Assembly (NCBI RefSeq): GCF_025698545.1
Contig: NC_068566.1
Location: 46,603,192 to 46,667,191, forward strand
Direction of reading: 5' to 3'
DNA: 64,000 nucleotides
DNA from: Gossypium raimondii
Taxonomy: Eukaryota > Streptophyta > Magnoliopsida > Malvales > Malvaceae
Shown: piece by piece, positions 4,399-34,596 of the stretch
Numbering within the stretch: position 1 is the stretch's first letter
How the letters are laid out: every line of letters starts with the position of its first letter
The notes under the pieces: model-generated
Seen by the model: the letters and a program-made list of their open reading frames with translations, nothing else
Told to the model about the DNA's origin: nothing
Databases searched by the model: none
Position numbers and translations under genes: made by a program

Positions 4399-4739
4399 GT
4401 TAAAGTATGTTAAGTTTTTGTACTCTTCGTACATTTGAAACTTAGTCCGTCTACTTCTATTTCCATGAATTTAGTCTCCCTACTTTTTCAAATTCAGAAA
4501 TGCAACTTCAATTGTTAACACCATGAAAATTCTTCAATTAAAATCCAGTCTATTACAACAATATTTATTTTTTTGTATAGTTACCAAACAGTATCTGTTT
4601 ATTTCAAAATGTCATAGTCTTGAACAATTGAATTTGAATTTTTAAATCTAAAAAAAAGAGACAAAATTAATGAAAATAAGAGTAAGGCGACAAAATTCTA
4701 AATATACAAAATGTACAGATACTTGAAGCATATTTTAAC
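4399..4739. repeat. Fold-back MITE-like element
   Basis: The left part (from GTTAAAGTATG) is matched in inverted orientation by the right part (ending GCATATTTTAAC). The complementary arms of about 115-120 bp carry many mismatches around a short centre. It has no coding capacity. Flanking target duplications were not clear, so the ends are approximate. Confidence 0.5.
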
Positions 4740-5554
4740 TATTTTTAACGATATTAATAACTAGGCCGAAGCATGATATTAATAATAGAAAGATCAAATT
4801 ATATCAACAACTGGTTGGAAAAAGGATAATATTTTCCTAAATATCATTTTCGATTTGAGCATTATTAGGTTTAAAATGTTTCACCGAGTTAAAGAAAGAA
4901 AGAAAAAGTAGAGAATTGGATGGGGTTTCGTGACATAACTCCTTAACTAAAAAGGGGATGAATCTTCACTACCAAAGTAAAAAAACAAATGTGGAAATAA
5001 TGCGAGAAAGAAAAGGGTGTTAATGTCGTGGAATAGAAGTTTAGAGAGCAAATGGACAAGGAATAAGGGCAATGGAAAAGCCTTTTGCCGAATTCAATTA
5101 GGTCCTTTTCGAGAAGTTTTGCCCCTTTGGTCATTTCCTTTGGTTAAAACGTGGGGAACCAAAACAATTATGAGTTTACATCGGCAATGATTGTAGATCA
5201 AACCCCACCACTTGCTTTTCCATTAGCTTTTCTATTTTACTCCTTTTCCCCATTTTAGTGTTTCATTTATTTGCAAAGCAACAAAATTTAGTAACATGTA
5301 TATAAAATTAATATATGCAACAACAAACATCTATAGAAAATACAAATGACCTAACAAAGAAAAAAGCCAGTTCTTTTTGTTTATTTATTACTATATATTC
5401 TCTTTTTACATCAGAAAATGTCTCTCTTATTAGTATATATTTTTTTATTTTGACCAATTCTTGAGTCACCCTTTTGTGTTGCTTTTGTGATCATCAAAGC
5501 TACCAAACAACTTTAGTTAAATAACGATTGTTTTTCCCTATATAGTGTAGCTTA

Positions 5555-6045
5555 ATATGAGTTTTGATAATTAATTTGTCATATCTATGTTTTTTTCAAT
5601 GTTATATTCGTATTTGGTAAAAGTTATATATTTTGGCACATGTGGTAATAGTTTTAGGATTGAATTGAAAAAATTGATTTCCTAATATTATTATTAGGTT
5701 TGAATTTTTTCTTATTTTTAATAAATAAAATTAGTGTTAATGGTGGAATTTGTTAAATATAGTTTGATAGGTGTGCTTTTTGGGGTTTAGAGTTGATTTA
5801 GAGAAAGTCAATTGCTAAAAGTATTAATTAATTATGAATTTTCGTCAAATCAATTTTAAAACTCAAATTAAATTTTAAAAATTAACGGTGTTACCTTCAA
5901 ATACCAAAATGTATAACTTTTACTAAACACAAGTACATACCACATTGAATAAACATAAATGTCACATTAAAAAATCAAATTGAATACCAAATAATATATT
6001 AAACCTAATACATTATTAATTAACTCTCTATACAAATTTTTTGAT
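5555..6045. repeat. Fold-back repeat, family 5 (copy 1)
   Basis: A left arm containing GTAAAAGTTATATATTTTGG is matched in inverted orientation by a right arm containing CCAAAATGTATAACTTTTAC. The spacer is A+T rich. A related structure lies at about 42345-42785 upstream of the trehalose-phosphatase gene. Non-coding; ends approximate. Confidence 0.45.
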
Positions 6046-6739: not shown

Positions 6740-7090
6740 GTGGATATTTTTATATTATAAGTTGGATTTTATTTTATTTTTTTATTAAGATATAAATTAA
6801 TTTGTATATGTTATATTAAAGAGTAGGTTGATTTTTTTGTTAAAATTTTATTAATTTTTATTGTTAAAAATTAATTTATATATGTTAGCATAAAGTACAT
6901 ATAACACGCATGTAATTGTCTAGTTATTCCATCAACCACACCTAATTTTAACAATAGAAATGGACGTAAGTTTTAACAGAGTGATAAATTTACTTTTTGA
7001 TCTAACTTACATGAACTAATTTACCATTTTTTAATAAAGAGAAAAAAAATAATTTGACTCTTAATATAAGGGCTTCCATGATGCTTTTAA
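6740..7090. repeat. Fold-back repeat, family 1 (copy A)
   Basis: This is one of five related copies in the window (also 15035-15360, 38508-38768, 47020-47343, 56784-57193). The right half contains TTTTTGATCTAA, an ACTAATTT phrase, then CTCTTAATATAAGGGCTTCCATG. The left half carries the same phrases inverted. All copies are non-coding and about 260-410 bp long. Family membership is clear from shared phrase order; the superfamily is not. Confidence 0.6.
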
Positions 7091-19389: not shown

Positions 19390-20110
19390 ATGGCGTATTT
19401 GAAGTATGAAATTCTACTGTTGGATCGCAACACCAGATTTGCGTTGTGGCAGATTAAGATGCAAGCAATTCTTGCGCAGATGGATCTGGAGGATATCCTG
19501 CTAGGGATAGATAAGATGCCTTCAACATTAACAGATGAAGAGAAGAAGTGTAAGGATCGAAAGGCGTTAACACAATTACATCTGCATTTGTCTAACGAAA
19601 TTTTGCAGGATGTAATGAAGGAGAAAACTATCGCTGCATTATGGAAAAGGCTGAAACGAATATGTATATCGAAAACTCTAACCAGCAAGTTGCATATGAG
19701 GCAGCATTTTTATGCTCATTGTTTGGAGGAAAGTGCGTCTGTGCACGAACACTTAACAGTGTTTAATGAAATTCTCTCAAACTTGGAGGCCATGGAGGTT
19801 CAGCATGATAAGAAAAATCTAGGGTTGATTCTACTTTGTTCGTTGCCCCCGTCTTTTCAACCTTTAGAGACACGATTTTATATAATTGCGAGTCTCTTAC
19901 AATTGATGAGGTTTATAATTTTTTGACCTCGTATGATAAGATGAAGCATCTTGTGATTAAACCCGACTCTAAGGGAGAGGGTCTCATTGTTCATGGGAGA
20001 TAAGATCGGAATGCTGATGATGATCGTGGAAGGAGAAAGGGCACATTAAATCTGAGTGCTATAAGCTACAGAACAAGATCAAAAGAGAGGCTGCGAATCA
20101 AAAAGGAAAA
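19390..20110 (+). pseudogene. Copia gag remnant
   Basis: The frame from the ATG at 19390 to 19926 has the Tork-type gag pattern, including LWQIKMQAIL, then LHLSNEILQDV and ISKTLTSKLHMRQHFYA, followed by LLCSLPPSF. Past 19926 the frame is broken. The CCHC zinc knuckle that should follow keeps only its second half (GHIKSECYK, about 20038-20070) in another frame, so the RNA-binding knuckle is lost. It served as the nucleocapsid protein of the retrotransposon and is non-functional now. Confidence 0.85.
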
Positions 20111-20146
20111 CAACCAGAAAATTCTGGTGAAGCTGATGTTGTAGAA

Positions 20147-20389
20147 TACTACAGCAATGGTGAACTTCTAGTCACTTCTGTCAACAATTCTAAAGTGAAC
20201 AATGAGTGGATTTTTTATTCGGGTTGCACCTTCCACGTGAGTCTCAATCACGTTTGGTTTACAACTTACGAAACAGTGTTTGAAGGTATTATTTCGATGG
20301 GAAATAATGCTTCGTGTAAAATTACAAGTGTTGGAACGATTAAAGTTAAGATGTTTGACGGAGTTATCAAAACACTTAGTGACGTATGA
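20147..20389 (+). pseudogene. Copia aspartic protease remnant with altered catalytic site
   Basis: The segment around EWIFYSGCTFHVS corresponds to the protease active site, where the family has an aspartate before SGC/SGA. Here that codon (20216-20218) reads TAT, tyrosine. The frame then runs on until a stop at 20387-20389. Loss of this aspartate would abolish polyprotein cleavage. Confidence 0.75.
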
Positions 20390-20589
20390 CATGTTCTAGA
20401 ATTGAAGAGAAATTTAATTTTGTTTAGTACTCTTGATTCAAAAGGGTACAGATACACAGCTGAAAATGGGGTTTTAAAGATTTCCAAAGGTTCCCTCGTT
20501 GTGATGAAATGTTAGAAAAAGACTACCAAATTATATGTTTTATAAGGTTCTACTGTTACTGGTGATACAGCTGTCGCTTCCTCTTCCTT

Positions 20590-21465
20590 GTCAGATGATG
20601 ATATTACTAAACTTTGGCATATGTGTCTAGGGCATATGAGTGAGAATAGCATGGCAGAATTGAGCAAAAGAGGACTTCTTGATGGACAAGAGAGTTCGAT
20701 TCACTAGAGGAATCCATAACACGAAGGGAATGTTGAAGTATATTCATTTTGATCTGTGGGGGCCATCTAGAGTGCCTTCGAAAGATGGAGCTAATTATAT
20801 GCTAACTTTTATTAATGACTTTTCTAAAAAAGTTTGGGCGTTCTTCCTAAAGCAGAAAAGCGATGTGTTTTCTGCATTTAAGTCTCGGCAAACTATGATT
20901 GAAAATCAGACAGAAAAATAAATAAAGCACCTCCGCACAGACAATGGCTTAAAGTTCTATTCTAATGAGTTTAATGAACTATGCAAGTCAGAAGGAATCA
21001 TGAGACACTTGATAGTTCGTCTACTCCATAACAAAACGGCATTGCAGAACGAATGAACAGAATGATCATGGAGAAAGTTTGATGTATGTTATCGAATGCT
21101 AACATACCGAAGTCGTTTTGGGCTGAAACAACCTCTACTGCATGTTTTTTTTAATCAACCAATCTCTATCCGTTGCCATTGAGAAAAAGACTCCACAAGA
21201 GGTATGGTCTAGTAATCCTGCTGACTATTCTGATGTAAAGATCTTTGGGTGTCCTGCGTATGCTCATGTTAATAATAGAAAATTAAAACCGAGATCCATT
21301 AAATGTGTTTTTCTTGATTATAAAACTAGCATAAAAGGGTATAAGTTATGGTGTCCTGAAAATAGAAAAGTTGTGATTAGCAGAGATGCTATTTTTGATG
21401 AAACTGTTATGCTAACTAACTTATCTCTTAAAGACTCCTTAAGCCAGTACAAAAATTCAGAATAG
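20590..21465 (+). pseudogene. Copia integrase remnant
   Basis: The N-terminal zinc-binding part is visible as [12 protein letters not shown] near 20610. The catalytic core follows in pieces: YIHFDLWGP (first Asp) at about 20740, RTDNGLKF (second Asp) at about 20935, and a shifted-frame segment with ERMNR (Glu) near 21050. Stops at 20919-20921 and frame changes near 20680, 21000 and 21130 break the gene. A C-terminal integrase piece is open at 21142-21465 (FGCPAYAHV). Confidence 0.8.
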
Positions 21466-21571
21466 AGTTGCTTCTTTACCATAAAACTCTATCACCAAAA
21501 ACATAAGTAGAAGAGAAATTAAACCTCCAAAGAAATATGTCAAGGTTGATCTAGTTGTTTATGCTTTAAAT

Positions 21572-22675
21572 GTGGCTGAAGATATAGACACAAACCAAGA
21601 GCCATCTAATTATTCTGAGGCAGTTAGCTGTGAAGACTCAGAAAAATGGATGTTTGCTATGCAAAAAGAGATGGAATCACTCCATAAAAACAGAACATGG
21701 GACCTTGTGAAACTTCCTAAAGGTAAAAAGGTTGTTCGTTGTAAATGGGTGTTAAAAAAGAAAGAAGGGACTCTAAGAATTGAAGAACCCAAATATAAAG
21801 CAAGGCTTGTTGCAAAGGGTTACAATCAAATTCTAATAGTGGACTTCACAGATGTGTTCTCCCCAATTATGAAGCATAGTTCGATTCGAGCTTTGCTTGG
21901 TATTGTGGCCATGTATGATTTGGAGCTTGAGCAGTTAGATGTAAAAACTATATTTTTACATAGAGAACTTGAGAAGGATATTTACATGAAACAACCAGAG
22001 GGTTTTACAGTCTCAGAAAAAGATAATTATGTTTGCTTGCTGAAAAAGTCCCTTTATGGTTTGAAACAGTCACCAAGACAGTGGTACAAGAGGTTTGATT
22101 CCTTTATGACTTTTCATGATTTCAAAAGAAGTAGTTTTGATAGTTGTGTTTACTTTAAGAAAAATAGTGATGGTTCTTTTGTGTATCTACTCCTTTATGT
22201 TGATGACATGTTGATAGCAGCAAAAGAAAAATGAGAGATAAAAAAGGTTAAAGCCCAACTAAATGAAGAATTTGATATGAAAGATTTGGGACTAGCAGAG
22301 AAGATACTTGGTATAGAGATTCTCAGAGATAGAAAAGCAAGTAAATTGTACTTAAGCCAAAAGGAGTATATTGAGAAAGTTCTTTGTAGGTTCAATATGC
22401 AGAGTGCTAAGCCTATTAGTACTCCTTTAGCAGCCCATTTCAGACTTTCATCGGCTTTGTCTCCACAATTAAATGATGAAATTGAGTACATGTCACATGT
22501 TCCATACTCTAGTGCAGTGGGATCTCTCATGTATGCTATGGTTTGTTCACGTCCAGATTTATCATATATAGTCAGTGCAATTAGCAGATACATAACGAAT
22601 CCCGATAAAGAATATTGGAAAGTAGTTCAGTGGATTTTAAGATACTTACGAGGTACTACTAATGTTTGCTTATAG
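21572..22675 (+). pseudogene. Copia reverse transcriptase remnant
   Basis: The frame contains the copia RT landmarks in order: KWVLKKK, YKARLVAKGYNQ, a FLHREL segment where a TAFLHG-type motif is usual, KSLYGLKQSPRQWY, and the catalytic YVDDML at about 22198-22215. The region is in one frame but is broken by a TGA at 22232-22234 and a TAG at 22673-22675. No frameshift separates it from the RNase H part downstream. Confidence 0.9.
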
Positions 22676-23101
22676 TTTGGAAGAACTAGAGATGAAGTCA
22701 TTGGGTATGTTGATGCTGATTTTGTTGGAGAACTTGATAGAAGAAGATCTCTCACAGGTTATGTCTTTAGAATCGGAGGTTGTGCAATCAATTGAAAAGT
22801 CACTTTGCAAACTACAGTCGCTTTGTCTACCACTGAAGCTGAGTACATGGCGATTACTGAGGCTTGTAAAGAAGCTATTTGGTTGAATGGACTTTTCAGT
22901 GAACTAAATGAAGACCTTCAAATCAATACAGTATTTTGTGATAGTCCAAGTGTCATCTTCCTTACAAAAGATCAAATGTTTCATGAGAGAACAAAACACA
23001 TTGATATTCGGTATCATTTTGTTCGTGATATTATTGCTCGTGGTGATATTGTTGTGAGTAAAATTAGTACTCATGAAAATCCTACAGATATGATGACTTA
23101 G
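22676..23101 (+). pseudogene. Copia RNase H remnant
   Basis: This continues the same frame as the reverse transcriptase: GYVDADFVGELDRRRSLTGY, a TGA at 22793-22795, then [24 protein letters not shown] and a stop at 23099-23101. Apart from the stop the domain is well kept. It ends 130 bp before the 3' LTR. Confidence 0.88.
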
Positions 23102-23231
23102 TCACTTCCTATAACCAAGTTTGAGCATTGCTAAGACTTGGTTGGTGTTCAATGTTGAAGTGAAACCCTTAAGGGGTTTTATGGAAGATGTGAAAAACTT
23201 GTTCGTTGAGAATTCGTGTCAAGGTAAAGAT

Positions 23232-23568
23232 TGTTAGAGTTGTGTGACTCAAATTCTAAGAGATTGCTTGCAAGGCAAGTTAAACAAAATATATCTTCTT
23301 TCTAGAAGATTTAGTATTTATGAGTATAATATATTTAGCATTTATTAGCATAATATATTTGACTTTGATTAGAATTAGGTTTTTCAACCTATAAATAGAT
23401 GTAGTTGAAACTCCTCTTGTAATTATTCGAATTTGACATAGTGAATTTTCTTCTTCTTTGCCGTAGTTTTTTTCCCAAAAGGGTTTCCATGTAAAAATCT
23501 GTGTGTTCTTTATTTTTATTTCTCTTTTCTTTGCGATATATTGTCATTACCGGCATTCTATTTTTACA
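23232..23568 (+). repeat. 3' LTR of the copia element
   Basis: An intact 337-bp LTR running from TGTTAGAG to TTTTTACA, followed by the target duplication GTATC. It is preceded by a purine-rich stretch (AAGGTAAAGAT) that fits a decayed polypurine tract. A TATAAATA-like motif is present within the LTR (CCTATAAATAG, near 23390), the likely promoter. Confidence 0.93.
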
Positions 23569-23573
23569 GTATC

Positions 23574-24430
23574 TTTATTGTTAAATGGATTAATTTAATT
23601 TTTGAATTATTAAAAGAATTAAATAAAATAAATTGGAACATAGCATTTACTTTTTAAAATGATATTTTGAGGTTACCCTAAAATAGCGTTGTTCTAATTT
23701 TGATCACTCTAATTTTTTTGTCAATTTAGTTATTCTAATTAAGATAATTGCCAGAACTGGTTATTTCTGTTAAAAAAGTATGTTAATCTATTAACGTATT
23801 GTTGACGTGACATTTTTTTACTTTTGACTAAAGCTAAAGCTAAGACCTCTCTATAATTAGTCCAAAACACTTTTTTTTTGTTTATTTGTAACATGAAGAT
23901 TTCAATAGTGACATAATAAACACTTGAATCCTCTTTAAGAAGAGGGAATCCAACAACGGTAACTACAAACCATGACCATGACTCTACCTTTTCCGATGAG
24001 CCCACCGGTCACCCTACTGCCAAGGATGGAGATCAATTTATTGCACGCCTTTAAGACTTGCATTCAAAGGATCAGCAATGAGAGAACAAAAATAGCCCAA
24101 ATAGTAGCGCCTAAGCTATTTGGCATAATATCGATAGTGGAAGGAGTGTGCGCATATGTGAGGATAGATAGGGGTGGTGTTGACATTTACGACCGACCTT
24201 ACCTATTTTGGTTACATTGCTGAGGCACGCCACAGTGGGCCAGTTAATGCTACCGATTGTCGTTGAATGGGTTGAGGGACTTGTGCACAACACCTTTGAG
24301 CGTAGTGATGACGAGAGAATTCTTGATGTGCCTTTGATGCGAATTCTTCATTTCATGTTTTTCCAAATGCTACGTGTCAAAGATGTGGTCAAGGGCTTGA
24401 ATCGACTCTACATGCTTTGTGAGAGTGTGC
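23574..24430. other. Intergenic DNA between copia element and receptor-like relic
   Basis: Two open frames on the + strand (23972-24223, 24208-24468) have no recognisable domain or neighbour relation and are probably chance. No RNA gene or repeat boundary was seen. Confidence 0.4.
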
Positions 24431-26410
24431 TTAATTTTGATAAATTCTTGAATAATATGGTGGAATAGGACCATTGAAATGGTTGTGAGAGAGGTTGAGC
24501 ACTTGAAATGAACAAAGTGCCCCAAGTTCCTTTGGGATATGCCCATAGAATAGGTTTTCTGAAAAATCCATGGCTGTGAAAATGCTTAACAGTTGCATCA
24601 TCTCCATCTCCCTGCTTTTCAATGTCACATTCACAAAATATTTATAATTATAAGAGAACTGTCACATTGGTTGTCTCTCAATCTCAACCAGAACCGACGT
24701 GGGCTTGAAATTCCGAATTCAAGTACATCTGTCATACCTCTGAAATTTTTGAACAAGTCTTCCGGTAACAAGCCCGTGAAAGTTGTTCATATGCAATTGC
24801 AGGAACATGAGAAACCGGTTGAGGTTCCTAAGACACTCTGGAATCGTTTTACCCAAGCTGTTTCTTGACAAATCAAGGACATGGACTAAAGGTGGTGGAA
24901 CTAGAAGAGGCCCTTGAAGCAAGTTTGATCAAAGATCAATAGTTGGTAGTTCTAAGATTCCTCCCTGGGAATTGACTTAAACTAGTCAAAAAGTTGTAGG
25001 AAAGGTCTAAATTGTTCAAATTTTCCCACCCTTTCGTTTTGCATTGAGATATTGCACCTTCAATTTTGTTGTTAGAAAGATAGAAATTGTACAATGACTC
25101 GGCTGTTCTCAAGAAATTAAGGAACTTTCTTGCATTACAAGAAGAGAAAAAAAAAGAAGTAAGCATGGGGATGGTGTAATTAATATCACTATCACTGCCA
25201 CTCAATGACAAAAATCTGTTGTTTGAAAGTTCAAGATAACCAAGTTTTTCTAGTTTCGCAAGCATATTTGATTCCACTGTACCACTAAGGTTATTCGATG
25301 AAAGATCAAGATAAGAAAGGTTTTCAAGTTCAAAGAAATAACTTGGTAGGAACATTGACGTCATTGTTTTTAAGAACAAGGCTTTGGAGTACTGCATTAT
25401 GAAGTTGAATCTGGTCATGCTCGATTGGACCAGTCAGTTTATTGTACCCAAGGTCCAAAATCTACAGTGAGGGCAGGGTAAACAACCAAAAGGGTAATCC
25501 ACCACTTATTTGAAGCCCACTAGTATGGTCTTGAAGAGGATCCTCTAGCCGATTTTATGCCAACAAGTTCTGTTAGGTTGAACATGGATATTGAAGTTAA
25601 CCACTGAAATTGCACGCGTCAAACTGCAGTGTAGTTAGTTTGTTTAGATTTCTAGATATGTCTAAGGAAGTTAGAAGTGTGAAATTGGCTAGGGATCCAG
25701 GCAACGAACCCTTGAAACCATAATTTCCAAGGACCAATGAATTAAGGGGACTACTCCAATTTGACACGGGGAAAGAATCTGTGATACCAAAATTTAAAGG
25801 TGGAAGGAGAAAAACCTCACCCGGAATCTCACCGGATATTCCACAAAATGTAGGACTCAAACTATTTAAATATGACGAAAGATTTAGCAAAGACATAGGT
25901 GTAACACTTGACATATTGACACTATCATGGTGAAGGTCTCTTAACGAAGTTAAGTTACCTGAAAGCATGTTAAAGTCGTGGTTCTCAAATTCCAGAAGGA
26001 TAAAGTGAAACCAACTTCGTTAGGGAAGAGATTGCTGATGGGATAAAGCCAGAAAGGGGAGAATAAGAGAGATCAAGATGGGTCAAACTCACTAGCTGAC
26101 TGAATGCAGATGAGGTAGTACCAATGAAACCGGTGTGACCAAGGTTGAGTTATCGGAGTTCTTGCAAGAGAAAGAGGCTACTGTTTGAAGGAAAAGAACC
26201 TTTTAAAGAGTTGGAACTTAGATCCAACCATTGAAACTTCTGAAGGTGAAAGAGGCTACTGTTTTCAGGGAGATTTCCAACAAGACAACATGACCAATCA
26301 CCTTGTCGCAGGTGACTCCCTCCCATGAGCAACAGTCAAAGCTTTCCCTCCAAGAGTTGGTCCTTGGAGTTGGAAATTCAATACAATAACCAAAAAGAGA
26401 AAGAGAAACT
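24431..26410 (-). pseudogene. Decayed leucine-rich-repeat receptor-like protein (RLP) gene
   Basis: Reading the minus strand from about 26410, the N-terminal cap SFDCCSWEGVTCDKVIGHVV is recognisable, the LRR-N-terminal domain of Cf-9-like receptor-like proteins. Repeats follow with typical LxxLxLSxNxLxGxIP spacing: WLDLSSNSLKGSFPSN, LTSLDIS, LSYLDLSSNNLSGTV, LNNLDLSYN, HVLDLSRNS, and VLNLSHNHFNGPIPP near 24470. They lie in different frames with several shifts and stops, and the C-terminal repeats, membrane segment and tail are missing. Intact members are plasma-membrane proteins that perceive pathogen or developmental signals. The gene is clearly dead and has no kinase domain. Confidence 0.85.
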
Positions 26411-26972
26411 CAATGAACAATAAATTAGTTGAAAATGAAATTAACAAGGCTAAGATGAGCAACCCATAGATGTGATATGATCAAATCATCTTATTCATGT
26501 TGCATTAAGGACCAAATATAATTACTAGTAAAAGATAAAAGACTAAACAGGCTAAGTTATGATAGGGAGATGAAATTGAGATGAGCTATGGTTAAATCAA
26601 CTAGAAATTCACACTTAAATATTTGTTTCAAGTCGATTGTAAGTCTATCTAAATTATTATTTTATGTTCCTTTCCATGCATGGCTGGATTTCAACAAAAA
26701 CAATGCAATAATTATCTTCCTTTTAAATACCATTTTCTCACTTAAGTATTTAAAATTCTTTTCTATCAAAAACTATCAATTTAGTTTCATTTTACTTTAA
26801 GAGTGTTGCAATGTCCAATAAGAATGTACCACTTGTCTCGTATTGATGGTTAAGTACCACTTTTAGTCAAAAAAATATTTTAAGTGCCTAAATGAAATAA
26901 ACAGTATAATTTGAGGGACAATTTTATATTTAAACCTAATATTTATAGCGGATTGAAAAATACATTTTTTGA
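26411..26972. other. Intergenic DNA
   Basis: A+T-rich sequence with no supported gene. A short open frame at 26588-26800 is composed mainly of A+T-rich codons and is not credible. Confidence 0.4.
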
Positions 26973-27006
26973 GGCTATTTTACTAAATTAATCCAAAAAA
27001 TATTAT
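26973..27006 (+). repeat. Outer arm of an interrupted inverted-repeat element (left)
   Basis: The 34 bp starting GGCTATTTTACTAAATTA are the near-perfect reverse complement of 31856-31890. The match stops exactly where the gypsy-type LTR begins at 27007, suggesting that the LTR element inserted into the left arm of an older inverted-repeat element. Confidence 0.6.
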
Positions 27007-29526
27007 TGTAAAGCCCATATTTTGCCCGGGCCCAAACCAGGATAACAAGCCAAAAAATAAAAATTATAGTCCATTACAAATGGCCCAACTGACCCAAAAA
27101 AATAAAGCCCGATAAGCCCAAAAATTAAACATAATCAAAGAAAACCTAGGGTTTCATTAACCTCTCATGGCAGTAGCCCCTCATCGCCCATGTGCTACTC
27201 CTCAAGCGTACCATCCGCGCCTCGTCCCGAGGCTTACCAGCACCCACCAAGCCTTGCACCAAAGCGGCAAGCCACTCTTCCGCCTTCACCAAAGACCTGC
27301 AAACAAACACGAAAGAAGAAACAAGCAGCAAGAACAGAGGAAGAAACAGTAATAGAAATAGAAAAAAGTGTAAAATCGGCTATAAAGGCCGCAAAAAATG
27401 AAAAGAGGGGGACTTTTGTTTCTTTAAAATCGGCATACAAACCGATTGAAACCTTGGATCGGGGGGTTTTTTTCATTTTTCTTTTCCTTTACTATTTGTA
27501 ACGTTTTTTAGAAATAAGAAACACAAAAATCAAAGGTGATTTCTGGCTCTTTTTGTTTTCATTTTTACATATTCTAACCCCTTTTTTATTTTTTATTTTT
27601 TTGTTCATTTATTTATATACGTATAATATATATAAAAAAGGAAAAAAGAAAAAATTACCTTTTTTGAAGTTTCCGCCATCATGACGGTGGTCATGCAAGC
27701 AATGTCGACGGCGATCCCCACACCGGAATCTGGGCAATGCCCAGTGAAGCTAGAGAGAAAACAAAGTTTTTAACCCTCTTTTTTTGAAACAAAACTGCTG
27801 AAATGAAAAAAAAATAATATTTTTTGGGCTTTTATACTGTTAGCAAAACGGCAGCGTTTTGGGATGGGCTCTCAAGGCGCAAAAGACGCCGTTTAGGAGT
27901 CGACCGATTCGCCCGACCCGCTCCGTGCCGAGATCCGCGTGTTTAAAGCGGAAGGGCTAATTGCGCTTTCACCCTTCCGCTTTTAAATAAATTTTGCAAT
28001 CAAGTTCTTTTCTTTTTAAATTAGCCACGTAATTTATTTGATTTACCATCTGGTCTTTTAAAACACGTTGTTTTGGAGGAGGAATATTTCCCATTTTGGT
28101 CCCTCCATATTTACGCCGCATCACATTTAGGCCCCGATTTCTTTTTCCTCTTCTTTTCTTTTTAGATTTGGATCGTTAAGTTTATTTTTCTTTTATTTTA
28201 GTCCCTTTCTATTTTAATACTATTACCATTAAACTAATTAAGTTATTATTACTGTCATTATTATAATCATAGCTATACGTTAATATACTTTATATTTGGT
28301 GCTTTATTATCTACATATGTTCATGTATTTTTACCTATATATTTTAAGACAATTACATATATGTACATATATACATACCTATATTTTATAATCTGTATAT
28401 ATATGCATTTTTTATTTATAATTAAAGTGGGAACATGCCCATGTTATCCTAAATACATATTTTATAATATATATAAATATACATTTATCCATTTACTGTT
28501 ATTTTAAAACCTATGTACATGTTTACGTATTTATATACTTTCTAATATATATATATAAATATTATATTCTATACCTTATATTATTTATATATCCTTATAT
28601 ATGCATTTTAATTTTCATAAATATATATTTTATATTTTTTATATATCTTTTATATATTTCTAATCTTCATATATACATACATCTTTTGCAATTTTATAAT
28701 TACTGTTACTTGTTTACCTATTCACTCTTATCTGCTTGTGTGCTATTAATTCATTTTTTGTTGTTATTGTTTTTCATTTAAACGTTCGTATAATGTTACA
28801 ATATCGTAATTATTATATCATATGCATATTCACCGCGTAGTTTGTCTTTGCATTTTTACGACATCATATTTTATTTTATTTCACCCAATATATCAAAATT
28901 TGTTTTTTTCGTATTTCGATTATTCGAAAAATTGTACCCTAACTTACTGGGTATCTATTTTCACAATAAAATCTAAATACGTGAATATTTTCAAATTCAA
29001 GTTTTAAATAATCTCGGGAATAAAAAGATCGTGTCCTAACTTACTGGTCGTGATCCTTTTTAAATCCGAGATAGCTAAATACCTTTTAAATTTTCGGCAT
29101 TCATTCGCGCATCGGGAATTCAAGACATTGTGTCCTAACTTACTGGATATGATTCTCTTTCTCGATTAACGTGAAATATGCCTCATTTTCTCGAAAATTT
29201 TCAACTTTTTAATACAATGATCGTATTTTTAAATTCTTCAAAGTTTTCACTCTTCGACACTAAGACATTAAGTAATCAACTAGGTACCAATTTTGGGCGT
29301 ATCGAGGGTGCTAATCCTTCCTCGTACGTAACCGACTCCCGAACCCGTTTTTCTGAATTTTGTGGACCAAACTTGTTGTTTTAATAAAATCAAACCGTTT
29401 ATTAAAAACAACCACTTTTCGAGGTGATCCAATCACACCTCATAAAAAAAGGATTGGTGGCGACTCCCGTTTCTTTTTTTAAAACCCAAGTCGACCCCAT
29501 TTTCCATCCAAAAAATGGTGTCAACA
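27007..29526 (+). repeat. Gypsy-type LTR (2.5 kb) of a truncated element
   Basis: It runs from TGTAAAGCCC to GGTGTCAACA with TG...CA ends, 2520 bp. Shared with the solo LTR at 16586-19197 are the GCCCGGGCCC start, a middle part with GCCGTTT motifs, three CCTAACTTACTGG motifs (28938, 29034, 29133) and the terminal block around GGTACCAATTTTGGGCGT. It is followed at once by a primer-binding-like site, so this is the 5' LTR of an element. Open frames within it (27167-27501) are not supported as genes. Confidence 0.85.
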
Positions 29527-29529
29527 GCT

Positions 29530-29547
29530 TGGCGACTCCACTGGGGA
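29530..29547 (+). other. Putative primer-binding site of the gypsy-type element
   Basis: TGGCGACTCCACTGGGGA lies three bases after the LTR end. A start with TGG, complementary to a tRNA 3' CCA end, is expected here. The exact tRNA was not identified. Confidence 0.55.
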
Positions 29548-29682
29548 CTAATACGAGAGTCAAGCCATGTGTTGATTACTTTTTGTCTTTTATCAAAGAT
29601 TGAAAACTTGACATGATCCTTGTGTTGCATTTCATTCGTCTTTATTTCAGTCATTATCATTTTGTTTATAATTACTGCGTTT

Positions 29683-30010
29683 AGATGTATATTTCTGCAC
29701 ATTGCATTGCATGACCGTTGGTCACACCCTTTTAAGTGGGAGTGAGAAACTACGCCTTCGTGAGGTTTTCACCTCCGCATGGGATAGTGAATCGCTTCCG
29801 GGATACATCCGTACCTATGTCTTCGTGAGATTTTCATCTCCGCATGGCCATAGGGAAATGTATTCCCCTGAACCGAACTCAGTTCGTATGAGCCTATAAT
29901 GGGTGAGGATCGAGGAATCTGTTGGTTCAGGTACCCTTACTTTAGAACCGAGCCGCATATAATGAGCCTTAAGAGCCTACCCTAGGTAGAACCACACCGA
30001 ATGCCTAGAG
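29683..30010 (+). repeat. Leader direct repeat, unit 1
   Basis: This unit contains TTTTAAGTGGGAGTGAGAAACT, the phrases CTTCGTGAGGTTTTCACC and CTTCGTGAGATTTTCATC, and CCTGAACCGAACTC. It is repeated with about 85-90% identity by eye at 30119-30440, a spacing of about 434 bp. It belongs to the untranslated leader of the gypsy-type element. Confidence 0.8.
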
Positions 30011-30118
30011 GTCACCCGAAAGCTTGGTTCAAATCTACGGTCATTTTGTTGTATGTTTGTCCGTTTTTGTTACGATTATCCTTACTTCAGTTTGTATTTG
30101 CTCTATTGGTTTGAATTT

Positions 30119-30440
30119 TGATATATTTCTGCATATTGCATTACATAATCGCTCGATTATTCCCTTTTAAGTGGGAGTGAGAAACTAGTCCTTCGTGAGG
30201 TTTTCACCTTCGTGCAGGATAGTGGATCGCTTTTGGGATACATCCGTACCTATGTCTTCGTGAGATTTTCATCTCCGTGCAGCCATAGGGAAATGTATTC
30301 CCCTGAACCGAACTCGGTCCGTATGAGCCTATAATGGGTGAGGATCGAGGAATCTGCTGGTTCGGGTACCTTTCTTTTAGAGCCAACCCTCATTTAGTAG
30401 ACTTAGGAACTTAACCTAGGTAGAGCCACTCCAAACCCCT
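30119..30440 (+). repeat. Leader direct repeat, unit 2
   Basis: Second copy of the unit at 29683-30010, in the same order and orientation, including the GGTGAGGATCGAGGAATCTG segment. Differences are scattered substitutions. Confidence 0.8.
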
Positions 30441-30810
30441 AGTATCTACCTGATTAGGTACTTTTTATTTTCTGTGCTTGCTTATGTTTTGCACTAACCC
30501 CTCTTATTGTGTTTTGATTATGATTGCATTGCATTGCATTTGCATCTTAGGAAAGAGATATGGATTCAAGTTCGATTACTAAATTAGAAAGCTTGTCATG
30601 GAATACGAATTCCTTGATAAAGTGGAAAATAATACGACTTCTCGAATATATTTTGAGGAACGCAAAAATGGTGATGGAAGAGTTCATGATCCTGCTTCGT
30701 GGCCTGAGGATTCAAGGAGATTGTCTAAGAGCCTTCGACGTTCCAAGAAGCTGACGAGCCTTATGAAGAGGGGCAGATGATGGGATCGTGACCAAGATCA
30801 AAAGAAGGAG

Positions 30811-31790
30811 CTAGCCTGTCAATGGGAAAAAAAGAAAAACGAAAAAAAAAAAATTTGGGTGCTGGCCTGTCAATGGCCGGCACCCAGTACAATTTTTTAA
30901 AAAAATTTCTTTTTTTTGTGTCAGAGTCAGATATCAGTATACGAAAAAAATCAAAAATAAAAATCTTTTGGGTGTTGGCCTGTCAATGGCCTCACCATCT
31001 ATTTAAAAAAATTTAGTGTCGAATCGGATATCGATATATGAAAAATAAAAAAATTTTGGTGTTGGCATCAATGGCGGCACTCAAGATAATTAAAAAATTT
31101 CTTTTTTTTGAGAATCAAATATCGATATCTGAAAAAATTAAAAAAATTAAATGAGATTCAATTTGCATATTCTTGTAAAATTAAATTTGTATTAGAAATA
31201 TAAAATTTAAATAGAAAATTCAATCTCATTTATTTTTTTATTTTTTCAGATATATCTTATCTCGATTCGACACTAAAAAAAGAAATTTTTTAAATAACTG
31301 GTGCCGCCATTGACAAGCCAAAGACCAAAATTTTTTTATTTTTTCAGATAATTATATCTGATTCTGATTCTAAAAAAAAAAAATTTTAATTAGATGGGTG
31401 CCGCCATTGACAAAGCCAAAGACCAAAAATTTTTAAAATTTTTTCAGATATCGATATCTGATTCTAACACTAAAAAAATTAAATTATCTTGGTGCCGCCA
31501 TTGACAGCCAACACCCAAATTTTTTTTTTGTATATTGATATCGACTCGACAAAAAAAGAATTTTTTTAAAATTAGACTGGGTGCCGCCATTGACAGCCAA
31601 AGACCCAAAAAAAATTTTTTTCGTTTTCTTTTTCCTTTTTCAGTATATCAAGATATACAATTTTTAAAAAATACATGGGTTCCGCCATTGATGTGCCAAA
31701 ACCCAAAAATTAATTTTTAAGTCGACACAATTATTAAGCAATCATGGGTGCAAAATACGAGTGGGTTCCGGCCATTGACAGGCCACAACC
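30811..31790. repeat. Inverted array of about 100-bp units (long fold-back)
   Basis: The left arm has four units marked by GTCAATGGC-type cores (near 30815, 30868, 30980, 31068). The right arm has six units with the reverse complement GCCATTGAC (near 31307, 31402, 31497, 31585, 31683, 31771). The arms meet at 31149-31164 and 31216-31232, which are complementary with one mismatch, leaving a loop of about 51 bp. Each unit also carries a palindrome such as TCAGATATCGATATCTGA (31444-31461). There is no coding capacity. A transcript could form a hairpin of several hundred base pairs. Confidence 0.85.
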
Positions 31791-31855
31791 TAATTTTACT
31801 GTTCCTTTTAGGTTATTTTGGTGATTGTTTTTAAACCTGGGTTATTTTTGTAAAT

Positions 31856-31890
31856 ATAATATTTTTTTAGACTAATTTGGTAAAATAGCC
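31856..31890 (-). repeat. Outer arm of the interrupted inverted-repeat element (right)
   Basis: TAATATTTTTTTAGACTAAT and the following GGTAAAATAGCC mirror 26973-27006 with a few mismatches. Beyond the GGCC-side end the similarity stops, so this is likely the true terminus of the element. Confidence 0.6.
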
Positions 31891-32435
31891 TTCTTATTTG
31901 ACTATTCGTAACAATATTCATTAATTCAAATTAGTATTTAAAAGATTTATTTATTCATTAATGGGGAGGGATATGTTAAAGGTTTATACCCTTTTCTATC
32001 TTCTTATACTATTAATATTTTAACGATCCAACTGTTATATTTTACTTTTTATTCATATAGATCATGTATGTCAAATTTGATATAAATTAAAATTTTATAA
32101 CTATTTGTTCTATATAAAAACTTTCTACTATTCAATAAATATATATAGTATTCTAGATCGGTATGATAGATATATCGATTAGTTTGAAAATTTACATGCA
32201 TGACAAGTACAATTATATCATAAATTCACCAGTTAAATCATTAAAATATTAATCATTTGCACTAATATAAATGGATCCCTCTCATTCATTAATTTACACC
32301 GATGTAACTCTGAATTCGAATATTAATATTTAAATTATTCAAATTTCAAAATAATTAGAAACAAAACAAGTAAATTATAATATAGAAAGACCCCATTTCA
32401 CATCTCATACAAATTACTCATACAAGCTAACAACA
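31891..32435. other. Intergenic DNA
   Basis: A+T-rich sequence with no supported gene. It forms the 3' flank of the minus-strand DUF674 gene. Confidence 0.45.
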
Positions 32436-33312
32436 TTACACATAATGTGCCTTCTCTCCGTAGAATATCTCAGTAAGCACAGTCTTCGACAGCAACAATG
32501 CCTTCAACAATTTCACAGCCTGACAGAGAACCAAAACAAGATTTCAATATTCAATTAACTCATAACATTTTCGATTTTTTTTTAAAAAAATTAACAAAAG
32601 AAAGCACTTAATTACCTCATCCATGCCGATTTTGATAGTTTTCTCTTGGAGTGCCTCAATATCTTTGACATTAAAACTATTAAGCAAAGCTAAACTAGAA
32701 ATAGTTGACATTGGCTTCTCCATAAGATCATCTATAACCATATATGTAACCACCCCTTTCACATACCCTCGCTCACCTTCTTCATTTGATGAACTTGATG
32801 ATGAGGACAAGGAATTAGAATATGTTTTCTGGTTTGACTTAACAAGTTTTGCCTGGTGACTCATCTTAGAACGACAGTTAGGACAAACAGCCTCAGGATC
32901 CTCTGCAATGTAAGAGGGACAGGGAGAAGGGCCAAAGCCAGGTCTAATATCATTGACACCTGTAAAAGCCTTTGTCTATTGAATTATTTGACGACTCAAT
33001 ATCAGGTAATAACCGAGGTAAGTTGGCTACACCAGAGTGGGCTAAAACTTCGGGGTTCAACAATGCTTCCTTGGTTTGAAATGGCTGTTGCATATACACA
33101 TGGCTTAACTCTTCAATGCTTTTATAAAGCTTACTAAGTGAACCCACCATGCCTTCTTTGTTAAGAAGCCTTACGATAGTGCCAATTGGCAATGCCATTA
33201 TGTTGAAAAGGAAATCAATGAAGTCTTTGTTTGCTTCGGCAAATAAAACCCTTTGGCATTTCACGTTAACTAGGAGCTTTAAATTGACTTTGCCTTCGGT
33301 TGTGGCCGCCAT
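32436..33312 (-). pseudogene. DUF674-family gene with a frameshift
   Basis: The start codon is at 33312 (MAATTEGKVNLKLLV). The first exon runs to 32616, and a last exon 32519-32436 follows after a GT-AG intron (AVKLLKALLLSKTVLTEIF, stop TAA). The start, the CPxCR-type cysteine segment near 32890, the YVKGVVTYMVIDDLMEKPMS block and the SKTVLTEIF tail are all DUF674 hallmarks. Between FYRC (about 32956) and the following NDIRPGFGPSPCPSY the frame moves by one base, giving a TGA at 32950-32952 in the first frame. A short intron cannot rescue it, since the skipped sequence encodes conserved residues. The biochemical role of DUF674 is unknown. It is probably a pseudogene, or the shift is a sequencing error; otherwise the product would be about 259 aa. 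Confidence 0.8.
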
Positions 33313-34596
33313 GATAGAGAATCAACCTTTGAACTTAGTTCAATAGCGGGAATGCCGATTGTGTCAAACACCGAGCTTTTGTTGACCCTTCTTGCTTTGT
33401 ATAATCTGTTGGGTGTATTCATTAATGCATTTTCATGTGGAATATGGAGAAGAATATGTAAGTTTAAAGAGATAAATGGTTGCTTCGTGTTGAAGTGGCT
33501 TAGAGAGAAAGGTTTTAAGTGAAAAAGTGTAACACACAAACACACAAAAATGTAAATGGTCTCTTTGGGTTGGAGTTAAGTAATGTGTTGATGAAGAAAA
33601 AGATATTAAATGAAATAACTTTTGGGTAGGAGAAAGATACTTAAATGAAGACAATGGCCCCATGCCTCTAACAAAGCTTGGAAAAAGGAATTGTTACCTA
33701 ACAGTAAGGTTTTTAAATTGGATAGGTGGTAGAACCTTAAACCCAAAATCTATTACACAGTCTCTTTTCAATTTAATTGGTCTTATCGATTTAATCTAGT
33801 CTAATTTTAATTAAAAATAAAAGAAAATTGATTCAACAATTGACTCAACCAACTTTTAATCTCATTTAAGTAACTGATTCTAAGTTGTTTGCTCAAAAAT
33901 CGTTCAAAAATGGTTTAACTCTTTGTTAGGATTGATATACCAACCAATTTCTAATTCGACTAATCGATCTAGTCCGATTCCATCAATCATGCTTAAAAAT
34001 TTGATTGATGTAAGAACCCAAGAAAGGAAAAGTTTAAAAGATTTAAATTTGACTTAATAGTAACTTTAACTTCAAAATTTATAAATTAGGTCAATCTTAT
34101 TCAACAACCTTATTTTATCAAGTCTTTACCTTTTAGAACTTTGAGAAATTCCATTCCACCAATTGCCCCCACAAGCCACATCACCATATTTTATCAAGTC
34201 TTTACCTTTTAGTTGTGTATGATTTTGGTTGTTCTATTTTTTTTTCATTTTTTATGTCCATTTAATGATTTATGTTCGACGTTCATCACTATTCTATCAA
34301 CTACATCGTATCCGAAGTGGTTTTTCTTAAAGCTTTTGTACCATTGACTTGAATGCAAATTTCAAAACAATAAGCAAAAAAAAGATTACCACATGCAATG
34401 GCAAAGGGGCAAACATCAACAACATCATGTTCATTGATAACAGAGAATATAAAGGATTAGCATTCAATAATTTAAAACCAGCTAAAGTTCTCAGCAAATG
34501 AAGCAAGTTTTGTTAAAACAACATAATGGAGCAGGGTACCACCACCGTCTTATTCTATGCCACACGAGAGATACTTTGAAACGGAGACGAGCCACT
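33313..34596. other. Intergenic DNA between DUF674 and transaldolase genes
   Basis: It holds the 5' flank of the DUF674 gene and the 3' flank of the transaldolase gene. A 25-bp direct repeat (TTTTATCAAGTCTTTACC core) occurs at 34112-34136 and 34187-34211. A degenerate dispersed repeat rich in AATCGATC/CAACCAA phrases lies at about 33775-33990, with relatives near 46895-47005. No gene was seen. Confidence 0.5.

Follow-up and report, generated by a model that had tools for sequence, protein, structure and literature searches.

The stretch of Gossypium raimondii DNA analysed here (64,000 nucleotides, hereafter the window) carries an array of repeated units laid out in two arms of opposite orientation, with a terminal region on its right side and a fragment of a retrotransposon on its left. 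The features, with the evidence that delimits them, are as follows.

26973-27006, minus strand: what may be left of the left terminus (GGCTATTTTACT...), truncated by the retrotransposon (terminal profile, E 0.0049, and inspection by eye)
27007-30815, plus strand: 5' part of an LTR retrotransposon, outside the element (limits shared by most of the other genome matches)
30816-31147, minus strand: remnant of the left arm, four units (unit profile; the left limit is the retrotransposon junction)
30826-30884, 30905-30996, 31012-31080 and 31098-31147 (partial), minus strand: units of the left arm (unit profile)
31148-31231, no strand: spacer between the arms, which holds a short inverted repeat and is a relic of the interior of longer copies (matches to loci L046 and L045)
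31232-31796, plus strand: right arm, seven units (unit profile; direct repeat families)
31232-31285 (partial), 31300-31383, 31397-31482, 31491-31560 and 31580-31646, plus strand: inner units of the right arm (unit profile)
31678-31717 and 31764-31796, plus strand: short outer units of the right arm (unit profile)
31797-31890, plus strand: right terminal region, ending ...GGTAAAATAGCC (terminal profile; anchor matches)
31891-31899, plus strand: TTCTTATTT, where the right copy of a target duplication would lie (position only)

Within 30807-31806, direct repeats reach 59 nt and inverted ones 61 nt, and Tandem Repeats Finder detected periods of 94-100 bp at 31232-31610. The sequence GCCATTGACA, with at most one mismatch, occurs 10 times in the window against 2.69 ± 1.55 expected (10 or more in 0 of 100 shuffles), and eight of these matches fall inside the array. 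Folded as RNA, the interval 30811-31790 has a predicted energy of -362.4 kcal/mol, compared with -176.57 ± 3.94 for 20 dinucleotide shuffles (z -47). A preliminary description of this DNA had recognized an opposed array too regular to be due to chance, and the repeat finders, the unit profile and the fold all agree with this; the 18-bp palindrome that it placed at 31444-31461 is exact. Its count of four units in one arm and six in the other holds for the left arm, while the profile finds seven in the right one, including the partial unit and the two short outer units. The loop, given as 51 bp, is a gap of 85 bp in the profile, the smaller figure being a matter of how one counts the short inverted repeat at the centre. 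Limits at 30811 and 31790 had been proposed; they enclose a genuine array and both have to be moved, the element ending at 31890 and positions 30811-30815 being retrotransposon. As to the double strand of several hundred base pairs expected from a transcript, the potential for a hairpin is there, with 286 of the 350 predicted pairs joining arm to arm, but a continuous duplex is not, the longest uninterrupted helix being 21 bp. The longest inverted pairs of the array are complementary at 71-85%. A transcript of the array would, according to this prediction, give a long but interrupted hairpin.

The genome (750.8 Mb) was searched with 211 bp of the right arm, which yielded at least 170 matches; 40 of 134 candidate places were scored, so that the counts from this search are lower bounds. 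The 38 loci compared below are L009 to L043, chosen through their matches to the window arm among the scored candidates and therefore biased toward good arrays, the window locus (L044), and L045 and L046, added because of matches to the transposase, the terminus and the outer unit. Over these loci, 479 of the 482 scored units follow a single rule, minus strand on the left and plus strand on the right, with the split between the arms set at the best-fitting position of each locus and overlapping lower-scoring matches dropped (mostly opposite-strand ones arising from the units' own palindromes). Of the three discordant units, two come from a further small array in L009, an opposed pair of units at 4472-4992 of that locus, about 1 kb from the first element. 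Both arms are present, within the stretch fetched, in 35 of the 38 loci; L011, L018 and L041 show a single arm, and more matches lie just beyond the fetched stretch of L018 and L041. Genome-wide, a 31-mer from the outer unit has 324 matches (at most three mismatches) and a 16-mer from the core 154 (at most one), with 0 for the control in each case. The search for further copies and for head-to-head pairing, suggested in the preliminary description, shows that both are recurrent, and the opposite case named there, independent arms opposed by accident, fails, since both arms face each other in 35 of 38 loci. This consistent orientation rules out a chance inversion of satellite arrays, which is one half of an alternative that we regard as barely credible; the other half, a foldback element of another superfamily, is taken up below.

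The repeated structure does not stop at the array. An anchor chosen outside it has 68 end matches in 36 loci (L009-L044), continuing to ...GGTAAAAYRGCC. The terminal 27-mer is matched 285 times in the genome with at most two mismatches, and 0 times when reversed; this figure includes about two ends per element, and counts matches rather than demonstrated family members. Both termini could be located in 32 of the 38 loci, and a single one in L011, L018, L025, L036, L041 and L044. The 9-bp flanks are identical in 18 of the 32 two-ended elements and agree at eight or more places in 22; one of the four pairs with 8/9 is A-rich and weak, and in the other ten elements the agreement is 7/9 or less. 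None of 992 mismatched flank pairs, taken as a control, reached 8/9. The 18 exact target duplications are of varied sequence. The left and right terminal 100 bp of an element have a median identity of 92% (29 elements, L009 left out), and those of different elements 83% (first 300 pairs compared). In L016, the flanks of the element, at 2340 and 3627, are alike by eye when read outward over about 65 bp, with two differences, so that its 9-mers are reverse complements; this element lies within an inverted target duplication, perhaps due to a hairpin-mediated rearrangement.

Three of the 18 elements with exact duplications, L022 (6.5 kb), L045 (7.5 kb) and L046 (9.1 kb), carry transposase sequence between the same arms and termini. 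Pieces of L022 match, in Pfam and on one strand, the MuDR DNA-binding domain (PF03108), the MULE domain (PF10551) and PMD; those of L045, also on one strand, match the MuDR domain (PF03108), SWIM (PF04434, just above the cut-off) and PMD. L046 is assigned solely by its 86% match to the transposase piece of L022, within which it has four stops. PMD is found in pieces of L036 as well, and its presence within MULEs has already been described (PMC5418596, PMC6446971). Between the transposase and PMD coding sequences of L045, at 5198-5716, lies a noncoding tandem repeat of 51 bp in about 10 copies. The centres of 11 of the 32 other two-armed loci, the window included, match the interior of L022, L045 or L046. 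An assignment to MITEs, which are short uniform elements of a few hundred base pairs, was rejected, as two-ended copies lacking long interiors measure about 1.0-1.5 kb and others reach 9.1 kb.

The family has the features of a Mutator element: a 9-bp target duplication, a MuDR/MULE transposase, and inverted ends with shared termini. It also has those of a foldback element, namely long inverted arms of tandem subrepeats in variable number (1-15 units per arm) and a single strand that folds back on itself, the latter by prediction, in the window and in 8 of 8 others. Given the termini, the 9-bp duplications and the transposase-bearing siblings, the window element is very probably a damaged non-autonomous member of a foldback transposon family of the Mutator superfamily (MULE). 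Foldback arms do occur with different transposases, that of Galileo being P-type according to the account cited here (PMC3169594); 9-bp duplications together with MuDR/MULE domains within the same arms fit Mutator, and we give another superfamily hardly any weight. The preliminary description had taken the array for the best candidate for an undescribed element. The kind of element is known, since foldback elements of the Mutator superfamily have been described (FARE, Tm1, tandem-TIR MULEs); what is new is the family. Our searches for a description of a cotton foldback MULE covered open-access text, some of them the best 12-20 of 34-107 papers, and listed none.

The window copy has no transposase, confirmed left terminus or target duplication. 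Its right end is clear, the terminal profile matching at 31782-31890 with an E value of 1.2e-27. On the other side, the left arm breaks off at 30815/30816, where it joins a retrotransposon fragment lying between it and the possible left terminus. Among 39 other genome matches to this fragment, 29 start within three bases of 27007 and 36 stop exactly at 30815; several form same-strand pairs 5-11 kb apart, as expected of LTRs. Within the fragment, a stretch of 235 bp is repeated at 29727-30396 with a spacing of 435 bp and 89% identity. A left partner of TTCTTATTT was sought in 20001-31000 with at most one mismatch, and none adjoins a left terminus. The flank at 26964-26972 agrees by eye with that at 31891-31899 at four of nine places; a slide of 2 bp brings this to 7/9, which we did not count as a target duplication. 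The outer flanks being unpaired, the ownership of 26973-27006 is unproven. This copy is most simply explained if the retrotransposon inserted into the left end and a deletion came after; for the same lack of pairing, this stays an inference.

The window centre matches the interior of L046 over 58 bp at 90%, that of L045 over 36 bp at 92%, and others too. These matches to the L045 and L046 interiors are short, at most 58 bp, and the stretch matched in L045 is near its 51-bp tandem repeat; on their account the window copy looks like an internal-deletion derivative.

Read from the outside inward, each end of the elements starts with a terminal region (about 100 bp, starting GGCYRTTTTACC), continues with a pair of short outer units, and then has inner units spaced at about 97 bp, whose number varies; the two ends are inverted with respect to each other. 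Left and right unit counts are equal in only 1 of 31 elements and do not correlate (Spearman 0.10, p 0.58; L009, L011, L018, L025, L036, L041 and L044 left out). The two units farthest out are constant in position from one element to the next, their best match being the same position of a different element in 53 of 73 cases and in 40 of 72; inner units are much less so. For 331 full-length units, the best match lies in another element in 270 cases, in the same arm in 44 and in the opposite arm in 17, where 1.5% and 1.3% are expected for the same and the opposite arm. Both of the latter classes are above chance, which points to a degree of local duplication and of similarity between arms. The same-arm excess is what local tandem duplication would give. 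Exchange between arms was rejected as the dominant process, with 17 of 331 units in that class and neither excess dominating. Compensatory change as the means by which the palindrome is kept was rejected too: in 156 units fitting a fixed pattern (others were dropped), whole triplets match in 1 against 1.07 expected, and pairing at the three variable positions is 117 against 65.5 expected, 53 against 51.8 and 10 against 12.0, an excess over shuffles at one of them. Selected hairpins within the units are not claimed here.

A mechanism consistent with these observations would run as follows. Transposase from the longer copies would act in trans on the ends of the element and insert it; internal deletions would leave copies that consist of little more than the arms, the window copy among them; and each arm would gain or lose units separately, by slippage or unequal exchange. 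In the window, a retrotransposon would have entered the left end, a deletion then taking the outer left arm. RNA from read-through transcription would fold back and could be diced, as a by-product of the structure and not the reason for it.

The opposite view, that of a dedicated host hairpin locus kept for its small RNAs, which might for instance act on longer copies of the family as proposed for maize Mu killer, has some points in common with our data. The predicted folds go far past shuffles, in the window and in 8 of 8 compact elements folded (from -553 to -738, where the shuffles average -215 to -268), and Mu killer, an inverted duplication of MuDR sequence, silences MuDR, a hairpin RNA of about 4 kb having been proposed (PMC3440606). 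Yet the same paper later prefers antisense transcripts over a long hairpin (PMC3440606), no Rfam family matches the element at gathering score, and the structure is common to dozens of copies with target duplications and to copies bearing transposase, so that transposition suffices without a host function. We consider a host locus very improbable, and keep to a damaged foldback MULE. Production of small RNAs from an array transcript is plausible, on the strength of the modelled fold. At gathering score, Rfam gave no family in the window element or in the 20 of 36 loci scanned; under permissive settings, 30600-32000 showed two matches, both below that score. The only window match at gathering score, a precursor of the cotton microRNA family MIR7502 on the minus strand at 6838-6978 (83.6 bits), lies outside the element, and a known RNA family for the array was accordingly rejected.

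A more speculative proposal, which we would not favour at present, concerns the arms themselves: the stacked units might be an amplified recognition site, such that more sites win more transposase and the arms grow, while every deletion derivative would then bear a hairpin that might feed silencing in trans, a brake resembling Mu killer and inherent in the architecture of the element. That such hairpins could silence the whole family in trans is, again, an unlikely though conceivable part of it. Equally tentative is its extension to related cotton MULEs, each of which might iterate TTGGTGCCGCCA, at a spacing of about 97 bp here and of 27 bp in L047. This sequence is present four times in the window, always in the right arm, and with at most one mismatch six times in L047 against 0.02 expected, a test that is partly circular since the motif was spotted by eye beforehand. 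In L047, which matches the transposase piece at 65%, two sequences of about 1 kb form an inverted pair (88% identity) with 27-bp tandem repeats that contain TTGGTGCCGCCA. L048, at 57% in the transposase piece and with ends that could not be defined, has no arrays and 0 matches to the motif, which was hence rejected as a universal one. Two distant MULEs are too few to settle the matter.

Among described systems, the closest parallels are found in the cited portions of reports on other foldback and Mutator elements. Tm1, a Mutator/Foldback element of root-knot nematodes, has 9-bp duplications, a Mutator-type transposase in some members, short derivatives, and composite inverted ends with tandem repeats in variable numbers, unequal between the ends; its units are of 13-15 bp and its transposase is Phantom-like, whereas the cotton family has a spacing of about 97 bp and a MuDR transposase with PMD (PMC3169594). 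The tandem-TIR MULEs of tomato, Arabidopsis, rice and maize share duplicated end sequences and target duplications, but carry at most two TIRs per end, against up to 15 units per arm here, where transposase-bearing copies are also found (PMC3310237). FARE of Arabidopsis, which we liken by its description only, is likewise a foldback element of a plant, whose ends are long palindromes and whose transposase has a MULE domain (PMC3169594, PMC4486113). MuTAnT of Medicago, also a MULE, has modular foldback hairpin ends, and its many short derivatives occur beside a copy bearing transposase; its members are mostly 200-300 bp long and target TA microsatellites, whereas those studied here are 1-9 kb long with varied duplications (PMC4486113). 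The MUDR-type plant MULEs also have 9-bp duplications, a SWIM transposase and a captured PMD; their TIRs measure 14-447 bp among the rows for groups 45-50, and the MUDR clade contains a G. raimondii sequence (PMC6446971, PMC5418596). GrTEdb is reported to hold 12 Mutators for G. raimondii (PMC5467567); set against 285 terminal matches, at about two ends per element and with membership shown for part of them, this suggests that the family may be under-annotated. Within this one plant family of foldback elements, long copies that carry transposase sequence can be compared directly with numerous derivatives reduced to their arms; as the arms range from 1 to 15 units, their length could be examined for links with spread, methylation and small RNAs.

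In the neighbourhood of the window copy, about 0.65 kb past its right end, DUF674 coding pieces (PF05056, E 1.6e-22 and 1.9e-10) lie on the minus strand at 32547-33321.
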